From: Synechococcales cyanobacterium PMM_0082
GTDB taxonomy: Bacteria > Cyanobacteriota > Cyanobacteriia > Pseudanabaenales > Pseudanabaenaceae
Direction: 5' to 3'
NCBI GenBank assembly: GCA_949127865.1
Contig: CASBQR010000074.1
Coordinates: forward strand, 1 to 35,938
DNA: 35,938 bases
In this document: one piece after another, positions 8,102 to 21,711 of the stretch
Layout of the letters: the number at the start of each line of letters is the position of its first letter
Position numbering within the stretch: the first letter of the stretch is position 1
Notes under the pieces: generated by a model
Told to the model about the DNA's origin: nothing
The model's database searches: none
The model's input: only the letters and a program-made list of their open reading frames with translations
Translations under genes and position numbers: made by a program

Positions 8102-9322
8102 ATGGTTGGTAATGTTCCAATTAAAGAATTTGACGGTTCTAAGCAGACCAAGTTTTTTGATGCCCTAAAAAACACCCAATTCAGTGGACAATTTCTCCTA
8201 GAAGATCCCACAGGGCAAAAATGGATTTTTTATTTATATCTGGGACGACTTTTGTACGCCACTGGTGGAGTTCATCCTGTAAGACGTTGGTTTCGTAATC
8301 TGGGCGCTTATTGTCCTCATATAGACCGTCCGACATTACGAGAAATGACTACCCTCTCAGATAATGAGGCTAAAAGTTTAGCAGGCTGTTGGGAATATGA
8401 ATTGTTGCGTTTATGGGTAGAGACCAAACAAATTACCCGTGAACAAGCAGCCCAGATTATTAGGGCTATGGTTTGTGAAATTTTATTTGATGTGACCCAA
8501 GCCTCGCAGGTCATCTTTTTAACCGAAACAACTACCCCACTCAAACAGCAATTAGTATTTTTAGATACCCGTACGCTAGTTGCAAATGTGGAAAAGCAAT
8601 GGCTAGGCTGGCAAAAAGCTAAGGTTGCCGATCGCTTACCTAACCAAGCTCCTATCATTAAAAACCTAGAGCAACTGAGACAACAAACTTCTCCTGCTTC
8701 CTATCAGGCATTAGTGCGGCTCTTAAATGGCACCTACACCCTACGGGATATTGCTCTCAATCGCAAACGGGACATTGTCGATATAATTACTTTACTTCTA
8801 CCCTATGTGCAGGCAGGAATTGTGGAACTCCATGATGTTCATGATTTACCTATCCCTATTCATAATTTACCCCAAGCGGCGATCAAGCCTCCAGAAGTTA
8901 GTTTTAGCGAAAATGATCTTAATATTCCATTAATTGCTTGCATCGATGATAGCCCTGCCGTATGTCAAGCCATGGAAAAGATTTTGACGAGTGCTAAGTT
9001 TAGATTTATTGCTATTCAAAACCCCTTACGGGCGATCACCACTTTATTAGCGCGTAAACCTGATTTAGTATTTCTCGATCTGGTTATGCCTGATACTAAT
9101 GGTTATGAGATTTGCGCCCAACTGCGTAAGACCTCATTATTTCGAGACACTCCCATTATTATTTTAACTGGCAACGATGGAGTCATAGACCGAGTTAGAG
9201 CCAAAGTGGTAGGCTCATCGGACTTTCTGGCAAAACCTGTAAATGCCGAAACAGTCTTATCTGTGGTGTATAAACATCTTAAATATTCAGATAAGATGAG
9301 CAAGTCAACAGTGGTAGGGTAA
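8102..9322 (+). CDS. PatA/PixG/PilG-like response regulator (PATAN-type N-terminus + C-terminal receiver)
   Basis: N-terminal 'FFDALKNTQFSGQFLLEDPTGQKWIFYLYLGRLLYATGGVHPVRRW' (PATAN-like); C-terminal REC 'ACIDDSPAVCQAMEKIL...KPDLVFLDLVMPDTNGYEICAQLR...PIIILTGNDG..DRVRAKVVGSSDFLAKPV'. Confidence 0.9.
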   Translation: MVGNVPIKEFDGSKQTKFFDALKNTQFSGQFLLEDPTGQKWIFYLYLGRLLYATGGVHPVRRWFRNLGAYCPHIDRPTLREMTTLSDNEAKSLAGCWEYELLRLWVETKQITREQAAQIIRAMVCEILFDVTQASQVIFLTETTTPLKQQLVFLDTRTLVANVEKQWLGWQKAKVADRLPNQAPIIKNLEQLRQQTSPASYQALVRLLNGTYTLRDIALNRKRDIVDIITLLLPYVQAGIVELHDVHDLPIPIHNLPQAAIKPPEVSFSENDLNIPLIACIDDSPAVCQAMEKILTSAKFRFIAIQNPLRAITTLLARKPDLVFLDLVMPDTNGYEICAQLRKTSLFRDTPIIILTGNDGVIDRVRAKVVGSSDFLAKPVNAETVLSVVYKHLKYSDKMSKSTVVG

Positions 9323-9378: not shown

Positions 9379-9741
9379 ATGAGTGTGGTTTTAATAGTTG
9401 AAGATACATTAACGCAACTAGAGATTATCTCTGGCTGTTTGCGTAAGGGCGGATTTACAGTTATAACTGCGGCAAGTGGGGAAGATGCCTTAACTATGAT
9501 TACTTCCCAAAAACCTGACCTCATTGTTTTAGATGTGGTTCTACCTGGACGCAGTGGCTTTGAAGTTTGCCGCGATCTTAAAGGTGATGAAAAAACTAAA
9601 ATGATTCCCGTGATTCTATGTTCCACTAAGGGTAGTGATATGGATAAATTTTGGGGAATGAAGCAAGGGGCTGATGCCTACGTTTCTAAGCCTATTGATC
9701 AAGAGCATCTAGTTAAAACTGTTAAACAATTGATTAAATAA
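9379..9741 (+). CDS. CheY-like single-domain response regulator (PilH/PixH position)
   Basis: 'VLIVEDTLTQLEIISGCLRKGGF...KPDLIVLDVVLPGRSGFEVCRDLK...IPVILCSTKGSDMDKFWGMKQGADAYVSKPI'. Confidence 0.93.
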   Translation: MSVVLIVEDTLTQLEIISGCLRKGGFTVITAASGEDALTMITSQKPDLIVLDVVLPGRSGFEVCRDLKGDEKTKMIPVILCSTKGSDMDKFWGMKQGADAYVSKPIDQEHLVKTVKQLIK

Positions 9742-9807: not shown

Positions 9808-10347
9808 ATGATGTCTAACCCTTTATCCCCTATTGAATTGGCTTCTCAAAACATTGATACTCTTAGTGAAGAGCAAGATGAATATAAAGGGCAGCAGTTT
9901 CTGCAATTCACGCTTTTACCTAATACCAATGTTTTGCTGTCTCTAGAGCAGATGGTAGAAGTTTTGAGTGTACCGATTCCCCAGATTGTGCCGATTCCCC
10001 AGCTACCAGAGTGGGTAATGGGAATTTATAATTGGCAAGGGCAAATTCTGTGGTTAGTAGATTTAGGACGATTAATTGGGCTATCTCCAATCTATGAAAA
10101 AGCAACAGTTAACTATTCGGCGATCGTGATTAAACAGAAAGGTAAACCCAATAATTTAGGCTTACTGGTGCATAGGGTTGAGGATATTGAGTGGGTTAAT
10201 CCAGACTTAATTGAGTCTCCACCTGCGTCTGAAGTTAGTACCGAGCTATTGCCTTTCTTGCGAGGATTTTTACCTAGTAGTAATGACAACATCATGGTAA
10301 TTCTGGACAGTGAATCAATCTTTGCGGCAATGCCCCAGAGTGAATAA
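9808..10347 (+). CDS. CheW-like scaffold protein (PilI/PixI position)
   Basis: 'QFLQFTLLPNTNVLLSLEQMVEVLSVP', 'LPEWVMGIYNWQGQILWLVDLGRLIGL', 'NNLGLLVHRVEDIEWVNPDLI'. Confidence 0.9.
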   Translation: MMSNPLSPIELASQNIDTLSEEQDEYKGQQFLQFTLLPNTNVLLSLEQMVEVLSVPIPQIVPIPQLPEWVMGIYNWQGQILWLVDLGRLIGLSPIYEKATVNYSAIVIKQKGKPNNLGLLVHRVEDIEWVNPDLIESPPASEVSTELLPFLRGFLPSSNDNIMVILDSESIFAAMPQSE

Positions 10348-10398: not shown

Positions 10399-12630
10399 AT
10401 GGCTCAGTCGATAAAAACAAATAATTTTAGCCTTGGGCGAAGATTTTCAAAGCTAGGCTTAAAGAATAAAGCCACAATTTTAGCGATCGCCATTGGTACC
10501 ATTCCCGTAGTGGCGATCGGTTTATTTGGCTACCTGACAGTAAGTCAATCGCTCACTGGGCAGGCACTAGAACGCAATAAAACTAAAACCTTACAGGTAT
10601 CAGATAAAATTAATCGATTTATGTTCGAACGCTTTGGTGATATTCAAACCCTTGCTACCTTTGACCTATTTACAGATCCTAGCCTTAAGGTTTCAACTAC
10701 TCAAAAAGCAGCATCCTTAGAGCGCTTTATTAAAACATATGGTGTTTACAATAATATTACAGTTGCTAACCTAGACGGCAGTACATCCTTTGGCAATACT
10801 AACAGTGATACGCCCAAGGGATTTAGCTTTAAGGAGCTAGATTACTTTATAGCAGTGTCAAAGAATAATCAGCCCGTGATTGGGTTTCCTCGTCTTTCCA
10901 AAATCACAAAAAAATTCTCGTTATTTGCCGCCGCTCCCATCAAAATTAATGGCTCAACTAATGCTGTAATCCGCACTCGCATTCCCATTGGCAAATTAGA
11001 TAATATTTTGAAGGACTTTGTCATCGCTGGAGATGATTATTACATTGCCGATTCAAAAGGAAGGGTTTTTTCTACTTCCGACAATGAAGCCTCAGATAAA
11101 GTGATTTCCGAAGTTTTTCCCATCTTAGGTACTCAACCTCCTACCAGTGATCCCGTTGTAAACTTTCATGACTTCGATCACCTTATCGGGGGATTTAACC
11201 AAAATGAAGAAGTAATTGCCTATGTTACTTCAACTACCTTAGATGGTTTACCTAACCTGAACTGGACGATAGTTGTAACCACCCCGACAAGTGTGGCACT
11301 GGCAGCCCAGCGCAATTTATTAATTTTAATTATAATCGGTACATTCATTACTATAGTTTTAGTCGCAATTATTGCTACTTGGCTAGTAAACCGTGCCACA
11401 AAACCTATTACCGAAGCGGCAGAAGCAGTAGGGAAAATCGGACTAGGACAACTCAAAACCCGATTAGTAGTAACAGGTGAGGATGAGCTAGCAGTTTTGG
11501 GAAATAATATTAACCTCATGACCGAGCAGTTAGAGATTCTGCAAAAAGAACAGGAACTGGAAGTACAGAGAGTTGAACAGGCTCGGCAAGAGGCAAGATC
11601 TGAAGCTGATGCTGGAGCCGAAGTCCAAAAACAAGAAAAGGAAAAGCTCCAAGCTAGCGCCCTACGGTTGCTGATGGAAGTTGACCCGATCAGTAAAGGC
11701 GATTTAACGATTAGGGCGAGGGTAACAGATGATGAAATTGGCACTCTGGCTGACTCCTACAACTCTACGGTTCAAAGTTTGCGCCAAATTGTAGTTCAAG
11801 TTCAAGCTACAGCGCAACAGGTAGTAGATACAACTAGCTTTAACGAACCATTGGTAAAATCCTTATCCCAAGCTGCTCTGCGTCAAACTGAGGATATGGC
11901 GATCGCCCTCACTAGAATTCAAGAAATGGCGTTATCTATTCAAACTGTATCTGATAATGCCCAAACCGCCGAAGATTTAGTAGAGAAAGCTGCCATTACC
12001 CTAGAAGCTGGAGATGCGGCGATGAATCGTACCGTAGATGGAATTTTAACCATTCGCAATACGGTATCTGAAACCTCGGAAAAAGTTAAACGACTAGGTG
12101 AAGCCTCTCAAAATATTTCCCGCGTTGTCAAATTAATTAGCGGGTTTGCGGAACAAACTAATTTATTGGCTTTGACTGCCTCCATTGAAGCTGCCAGAGC
12201 AGGGGCGCAGGGTAGAGGATTTGCGGTGGTTGCCGATGAAATTCAGGTTTTAGCACAACAGTCGGCAGAAGCCACGGCAGAAATTACCGATCTGGTGGCA
12301 GAAATTCAGCTAGGTACAAGCGATGTGGGCTTGGCAATGGCAGCAGGGACGATTCAAGTAGATATTGGGACGAAGTTAGTAGAAGAGGCGAGGGCGAACT
12401 TAACGGAAATTGCGATCGCCTCAGTGGAAATTAATAATCTAGTTGAAGCGATCGCCCAAGCTACTGTGACTCAATCTCAAAGTTCAGAAATTGTTAAAGA
12501 TACTATTACTGATGTGGCAGCGATCGCCGCTCAAACCTCCACGGATAGTAATCAAGTATCTAACGCATTCAAAGACCTCCTAGAAGTTGCCCAAAAGCTG
12601 CAAACAAGTATGGGACAGTTTAAGGTATAA
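10399..12630 (+). CDS. Methyl-accepting chemotaxis protein 1 (dCache-like periplasmic sensor, HAMPs, MCP signalling domain)
   Basis: Two TM segments ('[22 protein letters not shown]', '[25 protein letters not shown]'), HAMP, MCP hairpin '[34 protein letters not shown]'. Confidence 0.93.
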
Positions 12631-12632
12631 AT

Positions 12633-12857
12633 ATGGACACGGATGTATCTATGAAACCTAATTATGCTGAGAAGACTCGCCCCGAACTGCGTAAGTATGG
12701 GCTTTCCCACACCGACGATCAAGATGCTTTTTATGCTTTTGTCGATCTATGCCATGCCGAAAATCCTAATCCTAGAGTTTTATCCCTAGATCGCCTAGAG
12801 GAAGAAATTTTCGAGATCTTGCAAGAAAAAGGCTTGATTAAGTCAGAAAACCTGTAG
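12633..12857 (+). CDS. Small DUF6887-like protein of unknown function nested in the taxis operon
   Basis: 74 aa 'MKPNYAEKTRPELRKYGLSHTDDQDAFYAFVDLCHAENPNPRVLSLDRLEEEIFEILQEKGLIK'; starts 2 nt after the MCP1 stop (alternative start 12651). Family call from memory of 'MKPNFxxMTxxELRxYVLxHRDDxEAFYALMD' proteins. Confidence 0.65.
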   Translation: MDTDVSMKPNYAEKTRPELRKYGLSHTDDQDAFYAFVDLCHAENPNPRVLSLDRLEEEIFEILQEKGLIKSENL

Positions 12858-12903
12858 AAGTAGTTTGAAGTGAGTTAAGGGTATAAAGTTTAAAGCGATC
12901 GCT

Positions 12904-15825
12904 ATGACAAAAACAAATCAAGATAATTTATCTAAATCTAAAGGCTACGGTTTTAAATTCTGGCAAAACCTAAGTATTCGCTGGAAGCTAACCTTAGTCA
13001 TTCTCTTAGCGGCGGGTGTACCTGTATTGGTGGTGACTCAAGTTAACTTACAATACGCCCGAAATTCATACTTAGACAATCTGAAAACTACTCTTAAGGA
13101 AAAAGGCACTTTATTTACAACGGATTTTGTGCAGTGGGGACTAGAAGAGGCTAAAAGTGAAGCTAATGCCATTGCCCAGTCAGTACAAGTCGGCAAGATC
13201 GATCTAACCCAACCTCGCGAAGTTACGAAAAATCAAGCATTTCTGCAATCCCTTCTGCAAGTCTCTAGCCAAGATATAGCGCCCGAATCTATTAAAAACT
13301 TTAAGCTGATTACCGATGCCCAAGGTCGAACCATAGCCCAAATCGCTCAAGTTATAGGTCAAGATTTCACCATAAATCCCAAAATATTACCTCTAGGGGA
13401 GATTAGCCAGCCAGCCTATAGAACCGTAAACTTACCCGCAGGCATTGCGATCGCCGATTTAGAAATAGTTAAACAAAGCCTAAGTACGAAAAAACCCTTA
13501 GGTGGCACCGAACTAGTTAACAGTAATATCTTAAAATCCCTAGGCTTGGCAGATCAAGCAGCGATCGCCCCTCGCGCCCAGGTTACCCAAGGACTAGCCC
13601 CAGGCAAAGCCCCTGCCCCCGACGGCACCTTTGATATCGAGCAAGGCAGAAGTGGACTAGCAAATATTGCAGTTACGCCAATTATTATCAATGGACGCAC
13701 GGTCGGCACTGTGGTTGTCGGACAGTTACTTAATCGAAATTATGGGATTCCCGAAGGATTTCAGAAAAAATTAAACGTCCCAGTTGCGACAATATTTGCC
13801 CAAGATTTTCGAGTTAGCACCACCGTTCCCTATGTTGATCCCAATACTAAGAAGCAAGATGGTACTAGAGCGATCGGCACTAGAGTATCCCAAGAGGTAG
13901 CGGAAATTGTGCTTAAAAGCCGCCAAATCTTTTTAGGGGAAGCTAATATTATCGGCTCAAATTATTTAACCTTCTATGAGCCTTTGTATAATCATCAAGA
14001 CAAAGCAATCGGTATATCTTTTATTGGTACATCCTTAGCAGAGGTAGAAAGCAATCTTAATAATTTACTTTTTCAAAGCTATGCCATCGGAATAATTAGC
14101 CTGATCGTCATTGGATTCTTAGCGGGATTCTTGGCTAAGGCAATTTCCAAACCCCTGACTGCCTTAACAAATTACTCCAAACAGATCGGTGCAGGTGACT
14201 TTTCTAACAGAATCGAGCAAACTTATAGCAATGATGAAATCGGCACCTTGAATTCTGAAATGCAGAAAATGGCAACAGGGATTCAAGCTAATGCGCAAAG
14301 TTCAAAACTCCAACTAGCGATCGCTGATAGTGCTAGATCTAGTCGAGATATTAACCTGATTTTTGACTTAACAGTGAATGGAGCCAAGGGAATTTTAGGC
14401 GTAGATCGGGTTGTGGTTTATCAATTTAATGATGACGGCGGCGGTACAATTGTGGCAGAAGCGATATCTGATGATAATTTACCAAAAGCACTTAATGACA
14501 AAATCGAAGATGCCTGCATTAGCCAAGAATTAATAGAGGCATATAAAAAAGGTCGGGTTGTGCCGACACGGGACGTATTTAACGCTGGATTTCATCCCGA
14601 TCACCTAGATTTAATGAAACGCCTAGACATCAAAGCCAATCTCGTCACACCGATTGTTACAGGCGATCAATTATTAGGGTTACTAATTGCTCACTATTGC
14701 TACAGTACCCACGATTGGCAGGAAACAGAAATTAGTATTCTCCGCCAAGTAGCATTGCAACTGGGACTGGCAATTGAGCGGGTGAATTTTATCCAAAGTC
14801 AAGAATCCGAGGTAGAACTCCAAAAACAACAAAAAGAAAATCTGCAAAAGCGGGCAATGGAATTATTAATCGAAGTAGATCCTATTAGTCGAGGGGATTT
14901 AACGGTGCGGGCTAACGTGACAGAAGACGAAATTGGTACCGTTGCCGACTCCTATAATGCCATGGTCGGAAGTCTAAGGCGGATTGTGGCTCAAGTGCAA
15001 ACTGCTTCCCAACAAATGACAGATAGTACCACTTCTAGTGAGTCATCGGTATTAGGGTTATCCAAAGAAGCAGTCCGTCAGTCCCAAGAAATTAATATCT
15101 CCCTAGATCGCATTCAAGAAATGTCCCAATCCATCCGCACAGTTACCGCCAGTGCCCAAGAAGCTGAAGGTTTGGTACAGCAATCAAACGTGACTCTACT
15201 CGAAGGAGATGAAGCCATGAACCGCACTGTGGAAGGGATTTTAGCGATTCGCTCTACGGTGGCAGAAACTTCTAAAAAAGTGAAAAGGTTAGGTGAATCT
15301 TCCCAAAAGATTTCAAAAGTAGTTAACCTCATTAGTAGCTTTGCTGAACAAACTAACCTGTTGGCATTAAATGCGGCAATTGAAGCGGCGAGGGCGGGAG
15401 AAGAAGGTCGTGGTTTTGGAGTAGTTGCGGATCGGGTGCGATCGCTTGCCCGTCAATCTACTGCTGCATCGAGGGAAATTGAAACCCTAGTTGCGGAAAT
15501 TCAAGCGGAAACCAATGAAGTGGTAACTGCTATGGAATCTGGGACGGAGCAGGTGGTAATCGGGACAAAGCTGGTAGAAGAAGCTCGCCAAACCTTAAAT
15601 AAAATTGGTGAAGCCAGTGCCCAAATCAATACCCTTGTAGAAACAATTTCCCAAGCATCCCAAGCGCAGTTCACAGCCTCAGAAATTGTATCTGATTCTA
15701 TTAGTGATATCGCTGCGATCGCCCTCAATACGTCCACCGAGGCAAATCAAGTATCTAATTCCTTCCAAGAGCTACTCCAAATAGCCCAAGAGCTACAAAA
15801 AAGTGTAGGACAATTCAAAGTTTAG
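12904..15825 (+). CDS. Methyl-accepting chemotaxis protein 2 (Cache-like sensor, HAMP, CBCR-type GAF, MCP signalling domain); PixJ-like
   Basis: 973 aa; GAF '[34 protein letters not shown]...[90 protein letters not shown]'; MCP '[37 protein letters not shown]'. Confidence 0.93.
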
Positions 15826-15864
15826 TTAAAAACATTCTCAAACAGATCTACCCATAAGATTGCC

Positions 15865-18249
15865 ATGAATCCAAATCCTACCCAAATCAGTGACATCTCT
15901 CTTTCTAACGCAAGTTCTGGCTCAGAGCGGATCCAGCTAACTCCTAAGCCTAAGCTTTTCCAAAAGTATTATGATTTACCAATTAGAACTAAGCAATTAA
16001 TCAATTTAGGTATTGCTCAATTAGTCTCTGTGGTGGGATTAGTAGGGAGTGCAGCTTTACTCAACCAAACTCAGGGATACAAGCAATTAGAAAGTCTAGC
16101 AAAGTCAGAACTAGCCGTAGTCGATATTAACTACAATATCAAAGTCAATCAAATGGGATTTGGATTTCGAGGGCAATCGGACAACGCCAATATCATTACG
16201 GCAGCAAAGCTAGCTAGGCAAGGTAACCCTTTACCTGAAGCTTTACAGGTTCAAGTTGCTAAAATTTTGCAAAATGAAGTTAAAGCTCGCAAAATCGAAT
16301 ATGCCACCTTAGTCGGTAAAGACCTCAAGATTCTGGTTTCTGCCAATGCTAATCGCCAAGGTGAAATTTTTGATCCAGAGGGTTTGGTTACAAAGATATT
16401 AAATACACCCGATGGGCAGATCAGAACTACAGAGATTGTAAGTTGGGAGGAATTAAAAAAAGAGAATCCGCCGCTTCCTCAAGGATTTGCTAATCAAGAG
16501 GCTCTAATTCGCTATACTTTTACCCCTGTTAAAGACCCTGCTACGGGTGAAGTGATCGGAGCGTTGGTCTCAGGGGATATAGTAAATAATAAATTACCAA
16601 TTGTTGAAGGCACCTTAAAAGCCTTTGGTGGTGGCTATACTGCGGTTTATTTTCGTAAGAAATCTGGGGATATCGCTTTAGCAACATCATTAAATGCACC
16701 CAAGGGCAATGAATTAAATCAGGAATTACAAAAAATTAATCAGCCTCTATCTGAGCCTGCAGTTTTGAATGAGGCGATCGCTGCTAAAGGTACGCCTGTA
16801 ACCGACCGAATTAGGCAAAATCAGGTTAACTCTACTGTGGCGACTAAGGCTATTCTTAATTCCAAAAATGAACCTGTAGCTTTATTGGTGCAAGCAACCC
16901 CTGAAACCGAATTAGAAGCCTTAACTGCCAACACCTTGCTTCTACAATTGGTGATAGCTATTTTGGTACTTGTTATTAATATACCTCTAGCAATTATTCT
17001 GGCTAATGCCATCTCTAAACCAATTAAAAAGCTCCAAGATAATACTAAAAACTTCTCCGAAGGCGATCGCAATGCCCGTTCAGAAGTCTTTGCTGCTGAC
17101 GAAGTGGGACAGTTAACAGTAGTATTCAACGAAATGGCAGATCAGCTACAAGAGGTAATTGATAATCAAGAAGGGGAGTTTGAAAGATTAGAATTGGCTA
17201 GGGCTTTAGCTAGAAGTGAAGCTGATGCTGGGGCAGAAGTCCAAAAACAAGAAAAGGAAAAACTCCAAGCTAGCGCCTTACGATTGCTAATGGAAGTTGA
17301 TCCGATTAGTAAGGGAGATTTAACAGTTAGGGCAAGGGTAACAGAGGATGAAATTGGCACTCTAGCTGATTCCTACAACTCCACAGTACAGAGCTTACGG
17401 GAAATTGTAACTCAAGTGCAATCTGCTTCTCAGCAAGTACTAGCCACCACCAATAGTAGTGAAATATCCATTCAATCCCTAGCCACAGAAGCACTGAGCC
17501 AAGCCCAAGAAATTACAAATGCGCTTAAACAAGTAGCGGAAATGTCTGATTCCATCCAAGACGTTACATCCAAAGCCGCTAAAGCTGAAGTAGCGATCGC
17601 TGAGGCAACGGATACTGTAAAAGAAGGGGAAGCTGCCATGACCCTCACCGTAACAGAATTCCAAGCAATTAGTAATACTGTGACTGAGACTGCGGAAAAA
17701 GTGGAACGGTTGGGTGAATCTTCCCTAAAGATTTCGCAAATCGTTAACCTGATTGGCTCTTTTGCCGCCCAGACTAATATTTTGGCACTTAATGCTTCGA
17801 TGGAGGCAGCGAGGGCAGGAGAAGAAGGGCGAGGTTTTGCGGTGGTTGCGGATGAAGTGCGATCGCTAGCTCGGCAATCGGCGAAAGCTACTAATGAAAT
17901 TGAAAAACTGGTGGCAGAAATTCAAGCTCAAGCCCAAGACTTAGCAGCAGCCATGAAAATTGGGGCAAAACAGGTAACTACAGGTACCCAAATTGTCGAT
18001 ACCGCTCGCCAAAGCTTAGATAAAATTTCCATAGTTAGTGCTCAGATTAATAGTTTAGTCGAAGCGATCGCTACTGCCGCAGTTAGCCAAGCTCAAACCT
18101 CTGAATCTGTAACTAAAACTATGAATAAAGTAGCAGCGATTGCTGATAATACTTCTGATGGAGCTATTCACGTTGTGGACGGCTTTAAGGAACTATTAGC
18201 TCTGACTCAAAAATTACAATCCAGTGTGCAAAGGTTTAAAGTAAAGTAA
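15865..18249 (+). CDS. Methyl-accepting chemotaxis protein 3 (Cache-like sensor, HAMP, MCP signalling domain)
   Basis: TM '[26 protein letters not shown]', HAMP, MCP hairpin '[40 protein letters not shown]'. Confidence 0.93.
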
Positions 18250-18306: not shown

Positions 18307-21300
18307 ATGACTATTGATGCTGATATTCGGGATCAGGCTTACCAGTTCTTCATCCAAGAAGCACCTGAACTTTTATACGTAATCGAGACAGAGTTAGTAA
18401 ACCTGGTCGAAGGACGTAGTACAAATAAAATCCACAACATGATGCGCGCAGCCCATTCCCTCAAAGGTGGCGCAGCTAGTGTGGGACTCCCAGTTATTAG
18501 CCAACTGTCCCATCGCCTTGAGGACTTTTTCAAGACCCTACACCATGAAGAGCTAGTCATTGATCACGAGCTTGAAGGTCTATTTCTAGAAGCCTTTGAC
18601 CTGCTCCGCCTCAGCCTCAATCAGCAGATCGATACAGGTAATATTGATCCAGACCACATTGCTGAAGTTGCCGCCCCGATTTTAACTAATATTGAAACCA
18701 AACTTGGTGACTTTTTAGGTTCAGAAACCGAACTTCCTAATTCCATTGATTTAGGTGTAGATATTGCCCTATCAATTTTTGAAGTCGATATTGCTGAAGG
18801 CTTAGAAAACCTCAGAAATGTTTTGGATCATCCCCAAGAACATATCGTCGCTGGAGAATTAAGAGCGCAAGCAGAAGTGTTTAGTGGCATTTCTGAACTC
18901 TTAAATATGCCAGGTTTAGCAGCGATCGCCCATGCTACTATTGCTGCCCTTGATGCTAATCCTAGTATGGTTACAGAGATAGCTCACTATGCGATCCAAG
19001 ACTTTGAGGCAGCTCGTCAAGGGGTAATTGCGGGCGATCGCACCCAAGGCGGAAAACCATCGGCACAATTATTGGAACTAGGTACCTCTCAAGAATTAGC
19101 AACCGATTTTAGTGATTTAGATGATTTATTTGGCGATCGCCCACAGGATTTAGACTTCATATTCGCCGATCCCGTCGCTGCTCTACCCCCAGAACCTGAC
19201 CAATTAAGCGATGAATTCGATCTAGATGATTTATTAGGCGACATACCTACGAATGATATTAGGGAAGAATTAACCGAAGAAGTAGAACTTGAAAAATCCT
19301 TCAATTTAGCTGATATTTTTGAAGTAGAAGTACCCGATTCAGACCTTGATGATGTCTTTGAGAATGACATATTACTGGATTTAGATGATATTTTCACAGA
19401 AAAAGAAACTTCAGATGAGAGCTTCCTAGAAGAAGATCATGAAAATCTTCCCCTTGGCTTTGATGATGTATTTGGAGATGGTGATTTACTAGATTTAGAT
19501 AATGTATTTGGGCAAGAAGAGTCGATAGAGGAGATTGGGCAAACGCCAGATAGCGAAAATCTCCCCATTGGCTTTGATGATGTGTTTGGCGGTGAAGAAA
19601 TTGATGCAGATCAGAGTTTCTCTCTCGATGATGTCTTTGGTGGGATGACTCTCCCCGCAAACTTAGTTGAAATCACCGTTGACGATACCATTGTTCAGGA
19701 TTTCCCCATAGTCGCCAAACAAGTTACAGAAGCAAGTGTCGAATTAGCAGAACTACCAGAGCAAATCCTCAAATCTGAAGTAATTATACCTGCCAAATTT
19801 GCTAAATATACTTCTCCTGCACCTATATCTTCGCCAACAGCAGAGTCGCAGCTTTCCGTTCGGATTAATATTGATCGCCTAGAGCAGATGAATAACTTAG
19901 TAGGTGAACTCGTAATTAACCGCAATGTGCTTTCTCTGCAAAATGAGCAACTCCAAGAAATTGTGCTAGAACTGCTCCGTCGTTTTCATAAATTTAAGAA
20001 TATTTCAAATCGCCTACGGACTTTGGCTGATCAAACTGCGGCTTCTAGCGATCGCTCTATCACTACCACTACAAGGAATTCCAGCTATGCCCAAACCACG
20101 GATTTTGACTCTTTGGAACTAGATACCTACGGGGAACTATACACCGTCATGCAATCGGCGCTAGAGGACTTAGCCCAAATTGAGGAAACCGTAGAAGATG
20201 TAACACTGCTTTCAACCCAATCTACCCAAACCCTAGAGGATCAACGCCAAACTGTGACAAGGCTCCGAGATGATCTACGGTGGGCAAGAATGCTACCTCT
20301 CAGTGAAGTCTTAAATCGCTTCCCCCGCAATATTCGAGATCTGTCTAGTAAATATAAAAAACCAGTGGATCTGAAACTCAGTGGAACAGGCGTACTGGTG
20401 GATAAAGCCATCCTTGAAAAATTATACGATCCCCTCCAACATCTCCTGCGAAATGCCTTTGACCATGGGATCGAATCTACTTCTGCCCGCCTAGAACAAC
20501 AAAAAACCGAACGGGGACAAATTGAAATTCGTGCCTATTATCAAGGTAGCCAAACCCTAATTGAAGTGCGGGATGATGGACAGGGTATTAACTTAGAGCA
20601 GATTCGGCGTAAGGCTATTAGTCAATCTCTAATTACGAGAGATCAACAACTTACAGACTCGGAATTACTAGATGTGATGTTTCAACCAGGATTTTCTACC
20701 GCCGACCAAGTTAGTGAGCTGTCAGGTAGGGGTGTGGGTCTAGATGTGGTGCGATCGCAAATTCAAGCATTAAAAGGTTCTGTATCCGTAGCATTTACCC
20801 AAGGGCAAGGTACGACTTTTACCCTCAAGATTCCCCTAACTTTGAGTATTACTAATTTACTAATTTGTGTAGTTGGTACCAATGTCTTGGCGATCGCCTC
20901 TAGTAGCATCGAAAAAATTGTTGTTCCCCTAGCGTCCCAAGTTAAAAAGTTTGAGGGTCAGAGATTGCTCGACGATATTATTCCCATTCGCCACCTTTCC
21001 GAGTTCTTAAACTACCAATGCCCTTTACCAGAAAGTTTGCCTAATACCAGTTTGGTGTCTGTCCCGACTCCCGCCGATTGGGCATTACCCCTATTGCTAA
21101 TTCGGCGCAATCAAGATCTAGTTGCCCTCGAAATTGATCGCATTATCACCGAGCAGGAACTAGCAATTAAACCTCTAGGAGCAGGGATCGCCCCGCCTAC
21201 ATTTATTTACGGTTGCACAATCTTGGGTGATGGCAGTTTAATTCCAATCATTGATAGCCAAGAAATTTTAGGTCAAGTAAATCGACCAGAAGCGATCGCC

Positions 21301-21711
21301 CCAATTACCCAAACTCAAGCAGCAACCTTACTAATTGTCGATGATTCCATTGCCCTGCGCCAAACCCTCGCCCTTACTTTACAAAAAGCAGGTTTTAGAG
21401 TTTTACAGGCAAAAGATGGACTAGAGGCGATCGAGCAACTAGAAAAAAACTCGACAATTCAACTGGTAATTTGTGATGTGGAAATGCCTAATATGAATGG
21501 TTTTGAGTTCTTAACCCATCGTCGTCAAAATTCTAATCTCAATCGAGTACCTGTAGTCATGCTGACCTCGCGCAGTAGTGACAAACACCGACGCTTGGCT
21601 ATGCACCTTGGGGCTTCATCCTACTTCACTAAACCATATCTAGAGCGAGACTTTATTGCAGCCATTAAAGATACTTTGATTCCTCAAGCTGCCTTTAGTT
21701 TGAGTTCTTGA
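18307..21711 (+). CDS. CheA-type hybrid histidine kinase with C-terminal receiver (PilL/PixL-like)
   Basis: Hpt 'MMRAAHSLKGGAASVGLPVISQLSHRLEDFF'; HATPase N/G boxes 'HLLRNAFDHGIES', 'VRDDGQGI', 'GRGVGLDVV', 'GTTFTLKIPLTLS'; CheW-like region; REC 'LLIVDDSIALRQTL...LVICDVEMPNMNGFEFL...VVMLTSR...FTKPY'. Confidence 0.95.
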   Translation: MTIDADIRDQAYQFFIQEAPELLYVIETELVNLVEGRSTNKIHNMMRAAHSLKGGAASVGLPVISQLSHRLEDFFKTLHHEELVIDHELEGLFLEAFDLLRLSLNQQIDTGNIDPDHIAEVAAPILTNIETKLGDFLGSETELPNSIDLGVDIALSIFEVDIAEGLENLRNVLDHPQEHIVAGELRAQAEVFSGISELLNMPGLAAIAHATIAALDANPSMVTEIAHYAIQDFEAARQGVIAGDRTQGGKPSAQLLELGTSQELATDFSDLDDLFGDRPQDLDFIFADPVAALPPEPDQLSDEFDLDDLLGDIPTNDIREELTEEVELEKSFNLADIFEVEVPDSDLDDVFENDILLDLDDIFTEKETSDESFLEEDHENLPLGFDDVFGDGDLLDLDNVFGQEESIEEIGQTPDSENLPIGFDDVFGGEEIDADQSFSLDDVFGGMTLPANLVEITVDDTIVQDFPIVAKQVTEASVELAELPEQILKSEVIIPAKFAKYTSPAPISSPTAESQLSVRINIDRLEQMNNLVGELVINRNVLSLQNEQLQEIVLELLRRFHKFKNISNRLRTLADQTAASSDRSITTTTRNSSYAQTTDFDSLELDTYGELYTVMQSALEDLAQIEETVEDVTLLSTQSTQTLEDQRQTVTRLRDDLRWARMLPLSEVLNRFPRNIRDLSSKYKKPVDLKLSGTGVLVDKAILEKLYDPLQHLLRNAFDHGIESTSARLEQQKTERGQIEIRAYYQGSQTLIEVRDDGQGINLEQIRRKAISQSLITRDQQLTDSELLDVMFQPGFSTADQVSELSGRGVGLDVVRSQIQALKGSVSVAFTQGQGTTFTLKIPLTLSITNLLICVVGTNVLAIASSSIEKIVVPLASQVKKFEGQRLLDDIIPIRHLSEFLNYQCPLPESLPNTSLVSVPTPADWALPLLLIRRNQDLVALEIDRIITEQELAIKPLGAGIAPPTFIYGCTILGDGSLIPIIDSQEILGQVNRPEAIAPITQTQAATLLIVDDSIALRQTLALTLQKAGFRVLQAKDGLEAIEQLEKNSTIQLVICDVEMPNMNGFEFLTHRRQNSNLNRVPVVMLTSRSSDKHRRLAMHLGASSYFTKPYLERDFIAAIKDTLIPQAAFSLSS

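Follow-up and report, generated by a model that had tools for sequence, protein, structure and literature searches.

How does a CheA kinase choose and hold its substrates when the docking domain is missing? In model systems, the P2 domain of CheA captures CheY. P2 is missing from more than half of CheA kinases, in which the stretch between the Hpt and the dimerisation domain appears unstructured, and slowed phosphotransfer in E. coli has been cited beside its absence (PMC10782961). Here, we study a cyanobacterial kinase in which a short acidic-hydrophobic peptide recurs within this stretch. A countable and conserved peptide in an unstructured region is a testable handle on substrate choice by P2-less CheAs, as well as on specificity among paralogous chemosensory systems within one cyanobacterial cell. 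If the docking role discussed below is true, it would also be a bacterial example of multivalent linear-motif signalling.

The window, i.e., the whole analysed stretch of 35,938 nucleotides, is a single contig of a 2.7-Mb cyanobacterial genome (232 contigs, 85% complete). All features given below are on its forward (+) strand. The kinase is a CheA-type hybrid of 1134 aa (18307..21711; ORF, Pfam, AlphaFold2), in which Hpt, a conserved helical module, a disordered linker, H-kinase_dim, HATPase_c, CheW and REC follow each other. That is, Hpt, dimerisation, HATPase_c, CheW and REC are found in a single protein (Pfam), as in Tfp-type hybrid CheAs. The N-terminal module (18307..19077; Pfam, ortholog comparison) is kept across cyanobacteria and combines the Hpt (aa 12-87) with a second helical module, which ends with GDRTQGGKPS and extends to about aa 250, between the Hpt and the motif segment. 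The C-terminal REC (aa 1009-1120; 21331..21666; Pfam) is a possible in-cis partner of the linker.

The genes ahead of the kinase provide further candidates. A PATAN (DUF4388)-REC response regulator (8102..9322; Pfam), whose gene order is kept in related loci, and a stand-alone CheY/PilH-like receiver (9379..9741; Pfam), which is 45-70% identical to its counterparts in most related clusters, are candidate docking partners. They are followed by a CheW-like adaptor (9808..10347; Pfam, related loci) as an alternative partner and by three MCP chemoreceptors (10399..18249, with starts at 10399, 12904 and 15865; ORFs, Pfam). The window thus holds the PATAN-REC, CheY-like REC, CheW and MCP genes of a Tfp-class operon, and these genes recur in most related loci having sufficient upstream DNA. 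The same layout is described for cyanobacterial tax operons controlling type IV pili (PMC5812497). A 74-aa DUF6887 ORF (12633..12857; Pfam) lies between the first and second MCP genes. No homologue of it was found in 80 related loci, such that it is unlikely to be a general ligand; from this comparison it looks like a local insertion.

Nine [LF]D[DFN][VIL][FL] motifs and one degenerate copy, all in frame, occupy aa 271-445 (nt 19117-19641). Copies 1 to 3 read LDDLFG (aa 271, 19117..19134), LDFIFA (aa 282, 19150..19167) and LDDLLG (aa 306, 19222..19239). The degenerate copy LADIFE (aa 334, 19306..19323; within FNLADIFEV, aa 332-340) was read from the translation. It is followed by copy 4, LDDVFE (aa 347, 19345..19362), copy 5, LDDIFT (aa 359, 19381..19398), copy 6, FDDVFG (aa 385, 19459..19476), copy 7, LDNVFG (aa 397, 19495..19512), copy 8, FDDVFG (aa 423, 19573..19590), and copy 9, LDDVFG (aa 440, 19624..19641). 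Copies 6 and 8 are part of the near-duplicate blocks ENLPLGFDDVFGD (aa 379) and ENLPIGFDDVFGG (aa 417), an ENLP[LI]GFDDVFG pair with 34/39 identical bases. The preliminary description of this DNA had listed about nine motifs within 19110-19650 as well as two near-duplicate blocks; all nine are present in frame inside this range and the blocks are real. Its placement of the array after the Hpt region and before the kinase core is right as well, except that the second helical module also precedes the array.

We then asked whether the array could be spurious. For the strict motif [LFIVM][DE][DE][VILM]FG, the window linker holds 4 copies compared to 0.003 expected from shuffles, i.e., the array is not a product of chance. 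Tandem Repeats Finder (TRF) reports no DNA array in this region except a 2.5-copy 9-base match at 19108-19128, and the copies show a mean pairwise pS of 0.73 and pN of 0.22, a ratio that is biased downwards since the copies were picked by sequence. The copies are therefore alike in protein but not in DNA, apart from the near-duplicate pair. A coding or DNA-repeat artefact is ruled out: the copies are in frame, the kinase is conserved over its full length and synonymous sites have diverged between copies.

Next, we studied the linker that carries the copies (aa 263-520; 19093..19866; AlphaFold2, composition). It is strongly acidic, with 29% D+E, 3.5% K+R and a net charge of -65; the array segment itself has 35% D/E and 2% K/R. 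Based on a shallow alignment of 30 related kinases, AlphaFold2 assigns pLDDT values below 50 to aa 263-288 and 290-520 (ten-residue block means 26-39), with few, very short helical calls and no stable structure, compared to mostly 80-95 for the folded domains. Within this single-chain prediction from a shallow alignment, the motifs are of low confidence and show no order on the REC of the kinase itself. The Pfam search gave no match to a P2/CheY-binding domain in the stretch from Hpt to dimerisation domain. A known repeat or domain family was considered and rejected for the linker, since nothing in Pfam matches it up to E = 5 and nothing among PDB sequences up to E = 10. The motif segment is thus predicted to be disordered. 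This agrees with the earlier view that the motif spacing does not resemble a folded domain, for which a disorder prediction had been suggested as a check; the confident fold that would have contradicted it was not seen.

To assess conservation, orthologs were gathered with the N-terminal module (aa 1-257), a motif-free bait, such that the sample is not selected for the motif. Sample 1 comprises 81 linkers (80 loci and the window), with approximate borders from pattern matching; a few of them hold extra domains or end at a contig edge, and the L116 linker includes masked sequence. Here, the strict motif occurs 77 times compared to 0.09 in composition-preserving shuffles and is present in 33 linkers, while the looser core occurs 211 times compared to 13.6, with 62/81 linkers carrying it. 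An unsupervised reduced-alphabet scan of the 81 linkers returned acid-acid-hydrophobic-F-G as the top enriched 5-mer (85 vs. 0.43). Similar results are observed for sample 2 (40 orthologs from 18 families; organisms partly shared with sample 1), where the strict motif is found 25 times (0.03 in shuffles) in 9 families and the core 69 times (3.6 in shuffles) in 13. The motif is widespread in cyanobacterial orthologs and not peculiar to this genome. That is, the survey of cyanobacterial CheA linkers suggested by the preliminary description finds the motif conserved with variable copy number.

The consensus is about [P/A]-S-L-[DE]-[DE]-[IV]-F-G. Core positions 1-6 read L/I, E/D, D, I/V/L, F and G after a weak P-S and carry 2.1, 2.0, 1.3, 2.4, 4.6 and 2.0 bits, where the search itself demanded the Phe of position 5 (100% F); flanks reach 0.15-0.7 bits. 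In pairwise ortholog comparisons, the motif Phe is identical in 74% of cases vs. 36% for other linker Phe, and core positions in 52% vs. 34% for residues of the same types at other linker positions. Since ortholog pairs are not independent and the alignment favours matched motifs, we use these differences but no p-value. Copy number ranges from 0 to about 19, with many linkers having none or one; L117 from Synechocystis salina LEGE 00031 has one strict copy, L114 has six, L057 and L100 have ten core copies each, and L082 reaches about 19 by a looser pattern. The smallest spacing between copies is 12 residues. Array growth via unit duplication is seen in L228, L229, L215 and L086. In L215, L228, L086 and L057, there is less variation in the core than in the flanks, a comparison biased by the motif-based choice of copies. 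We read the peptide as a short linear motif because its core is conserved while its flanks diverge; turnover of copy number is in line with this.

We also evaluated how specific the array is. Within this genome, degenerate DNA patterns of the motif cluster in this gene and are scattered singletons near control level elsewhere. No second cluster was found among about 100 of the 107 pattern places listed, and lone matches are mostly within folded-looking proteins, among them an LDDVFG in L148, which is no member of the CheA family. Given these single matches and the one cluster among the places listed, we rejected other proteins of this genome as sharing the array. An across-class search at DNA level for two close strict copies, too narrow in design, returned this gene and L195 (G003:C2:3169569-3169636). 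The latter resembles an RTX-type calcium-binding repeat (DDLFGDRGRDTLIGDAGIDDLFG) and is unrelated to CheA.

A survey of 23 other CheA proteins turned up the strict motif once. Looser versions are present in the acidic linkers of paralogous CheAs from cyanobacteria. One class of about 1,700-2,200 aa (L176, L177, L178, L180, L186) has very long acidic linkers, which run to more than 1,000 residues in L176-L178. NLDALF, DLDDLFA and DLGDFFA are examples of the peptides in this class, the last in similar form in L176. Other repeats are LEDDFFAEEAIAS, in tandem in L178, and EDLKFDLDAFNLDAEAEPESQETAD in L180. Since looser motifs occur in these paralogs, the acidic-hydrophobic linker style is common to these cyanobacterial CheAs, while the LDD[VI]FG form marks the ortholog group studied here. 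By eye, no such array is found in a Deinococcus CheA adjoining a PATAN gene, nor in a CheA on plasmid pMIC7113.02. At the threshold applied, the nearly complete genome G001 of the same genus shows no match to the N-terminal module of the kinase, and its paralog L169 carries related motifs; the kinase may have been lost or laterally gained within the genus.

The kind of kinase is known. Tfp-class CheAs (P. aeruginosa ChpA; cyanobacterial PixL-type tax operons, with PATAN-CheY regulators) share the Hpt/ATPase/CheW/REC architecture of the present kinase, likewise lack P2 and have the same PATAN-REC/CheY/CheW/MCP cluster. Their unstructured segment is known (PMC10782961), but no description of a motif array was found for them, and a search for the exact motif strings returned no relevant paper; the literature searched holds no earlier description of the array. 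The linear-motif array, whose function we infer, is real, widespread and apparently undescribed, and the kinase carrying it belongs to a known kind.

With several copies of a conserved peptide in a disordered chain, the linker is best read as an array for multivalent docking, and we assign a probability of roughly 0.4 to the reading that it docks a receiver domain of its own chemosensory system. That receivers are recruited near the Hpt, as a replacement for P2, is proposed given the response regulators of the operon and the match in motif spacing to two peptides of E. coli. That is, compared by eye, the CheZ C-terminus DQVDDLLDSLGF (VDDLLDSLGF) and the FliM N-terminus SQAEIDALLNGD (AEIDALLNGD) show the same hydrophobic-[DE]-x-hydrophobic-[LF] spacing outside of a folded domain. 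Both are reported to bind one shared face of CheY (PMC3774744). They differ from the array in being single, terminal and part of a phosphatase and a motor switch protein, respectively, whereas the putative docking motif is internal, tandem and within the kinase itself, with position 5 usually Phe and position 6 often Gly. The likeness spans about five residues and could have arisen by chance. The looser versions in the linkers of paralogous CheAs are in keeping with receiver docking, in which the ligand would be shared by all of these systems.

For such docking, each copy would, once bound, fold into an amphipathic turn or helix whose hydrophobic residues (i, i+3 and i+4) face one way and whose acids face the other. 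Its ligand would be the PATAN-REC and/or the stand-alone CheY-like regulator, possibly also the kinase's own REC, and several tethered copies would raise the local response-regulator concentration near the phosphorylated Hpt. The array would thereby loosely do the job of the folded P2 of E. coli CheA, in kinetic terms as well. Both sit between the Hpt and the dimerisation domain with the same proposed task of holding regulators near the Hpt; P2 is folded and usually present once, whereas here the linker is predicted to be disordered, matches no P2 and offers many peptide copies. A wider proposal, which we hold more tentatively, is that P2-less pilus-class cyanobacterial CheAs recruit response regulators via this undescribed, tandem and copy-variable motif, i.e., a disordered substitute for a folded docking domain that has converged on the receiver binding of CheZ and FliM. 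Among eukaryotes, acidic activation domains and multivalent arrays of linear motifs are likewise acidic and disordered with repeated hydrophobic motifs, which leads to avidity or fuzzy binding. The analogy is one of principle only, with neither homology nor a common partner.

To relate the motif to a receiver, we compared 22 loci with at least two copies to 17 with none. In this phylogeny-confounded test, which covered the stand-alone receiver, residues of the α4-β5-α5 face show no excess difference with motif presence over other residues (p = 0.74). The multivalent P2 substitute that had been suggested beforehand is partly supported, by the disorder, the missing P2 match and motif islands of variable copy number; the negative covariation with the stand-alone receiver speaks neither for nor against docking of response regulators. 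Further points that weigh against receiver docking are the low-confidence motifs left unordered on the kinase's REC, the many orthologs with one copy or none and the different linker in the examined members of family f32. The null result lends something to a rather unlikely alternative, namely that the motifs dock another shared component (the CheW adaptor, the CheW-like P5, the ATPase domain or a receptor tip) such that the linker organises or auto-inhibits the array of receptors and kinases without recruiting regulators. CheW and MCP genes are part of the conserved operon, CheW-like and ATPase domains are present in every kinase checked by Pfam, and motif-like peptides are also borne by paralogous CheAs. 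Yet nothing specific indicates those surfaces, and the best peptide analogy (CheZ, FliM) concerns receiver binding.

The composition of the linker can also be read as hydrophobic stickers (F, L, I) spaced by acids, i.e., a cohesive low-complexity chain that clusters or condenses the kinase, e.g., at the cell pole, or that binds a pole or pilus-motor protein. Arrays of at least 10 copies in some lineages and, in the paralogous class, linkers longer than 1,000 residues would fit. We nevertheless consider this improbable: given its net charge, the linker should be less prone to self-associate unless a basic partner is present, the conserved core has more specificity than stickers would call for and some orthologs have a single copy. 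Still less credit is given to a linker without any binding role, in which an acidic flexible spacer drifted and slippage duplications amplified a peptide. The unit duplications in four orthologs, the lack of conservation in copy number and spacing, and the freely diverging flanks are what such drift would leave. It does not sit well with an identical core recurring in many families within different flanks, with window copies that differ mostly at synonymous sites, with a core varying less than its flanks in four orthologs (subject to the selection bias given above) or with the large enrichment over shuffles. Finally, hydrophobic-acidic short motifs in disordered segments can in general serve as adaptor sites, so that the motifs might control kinase turnover as a degron or protease-adaptor site; many evenly conserved copies and their restriction to CheA linkers in this genome fit this poorly, and we regard it as very improbable.

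Some further features of the ortholog linkers were observed. Several orthologs (L038-L041, L044, L057, L069, L089, L099 and others) have a second, motif-like element, VxSIEQIFxxLP, about 45-85 residues ahead of the dimerisation domain, which was not found in the window kinase. In the examined members of family f32 (L223, L224) as well as in L113 and L230, a folded-looking insert with the motif [LIF]GWF[NY]H... follows the N-terminal module in place of the array; L113 and L230 are apparently duplicates of a single sequence. Cyanobacterial-type chemosensory clusters are found in public MAGs labelled Tatlockia and Candidatus Gracilibacteria (L039, L062, L077); their contigs or labels look misassigned. 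Finally, L084, L221 and L222 have more than one Hpt-containing N-terminal module per kinase, including a segment with three Hpt stretches in L084, which suggests whole-module duplication.
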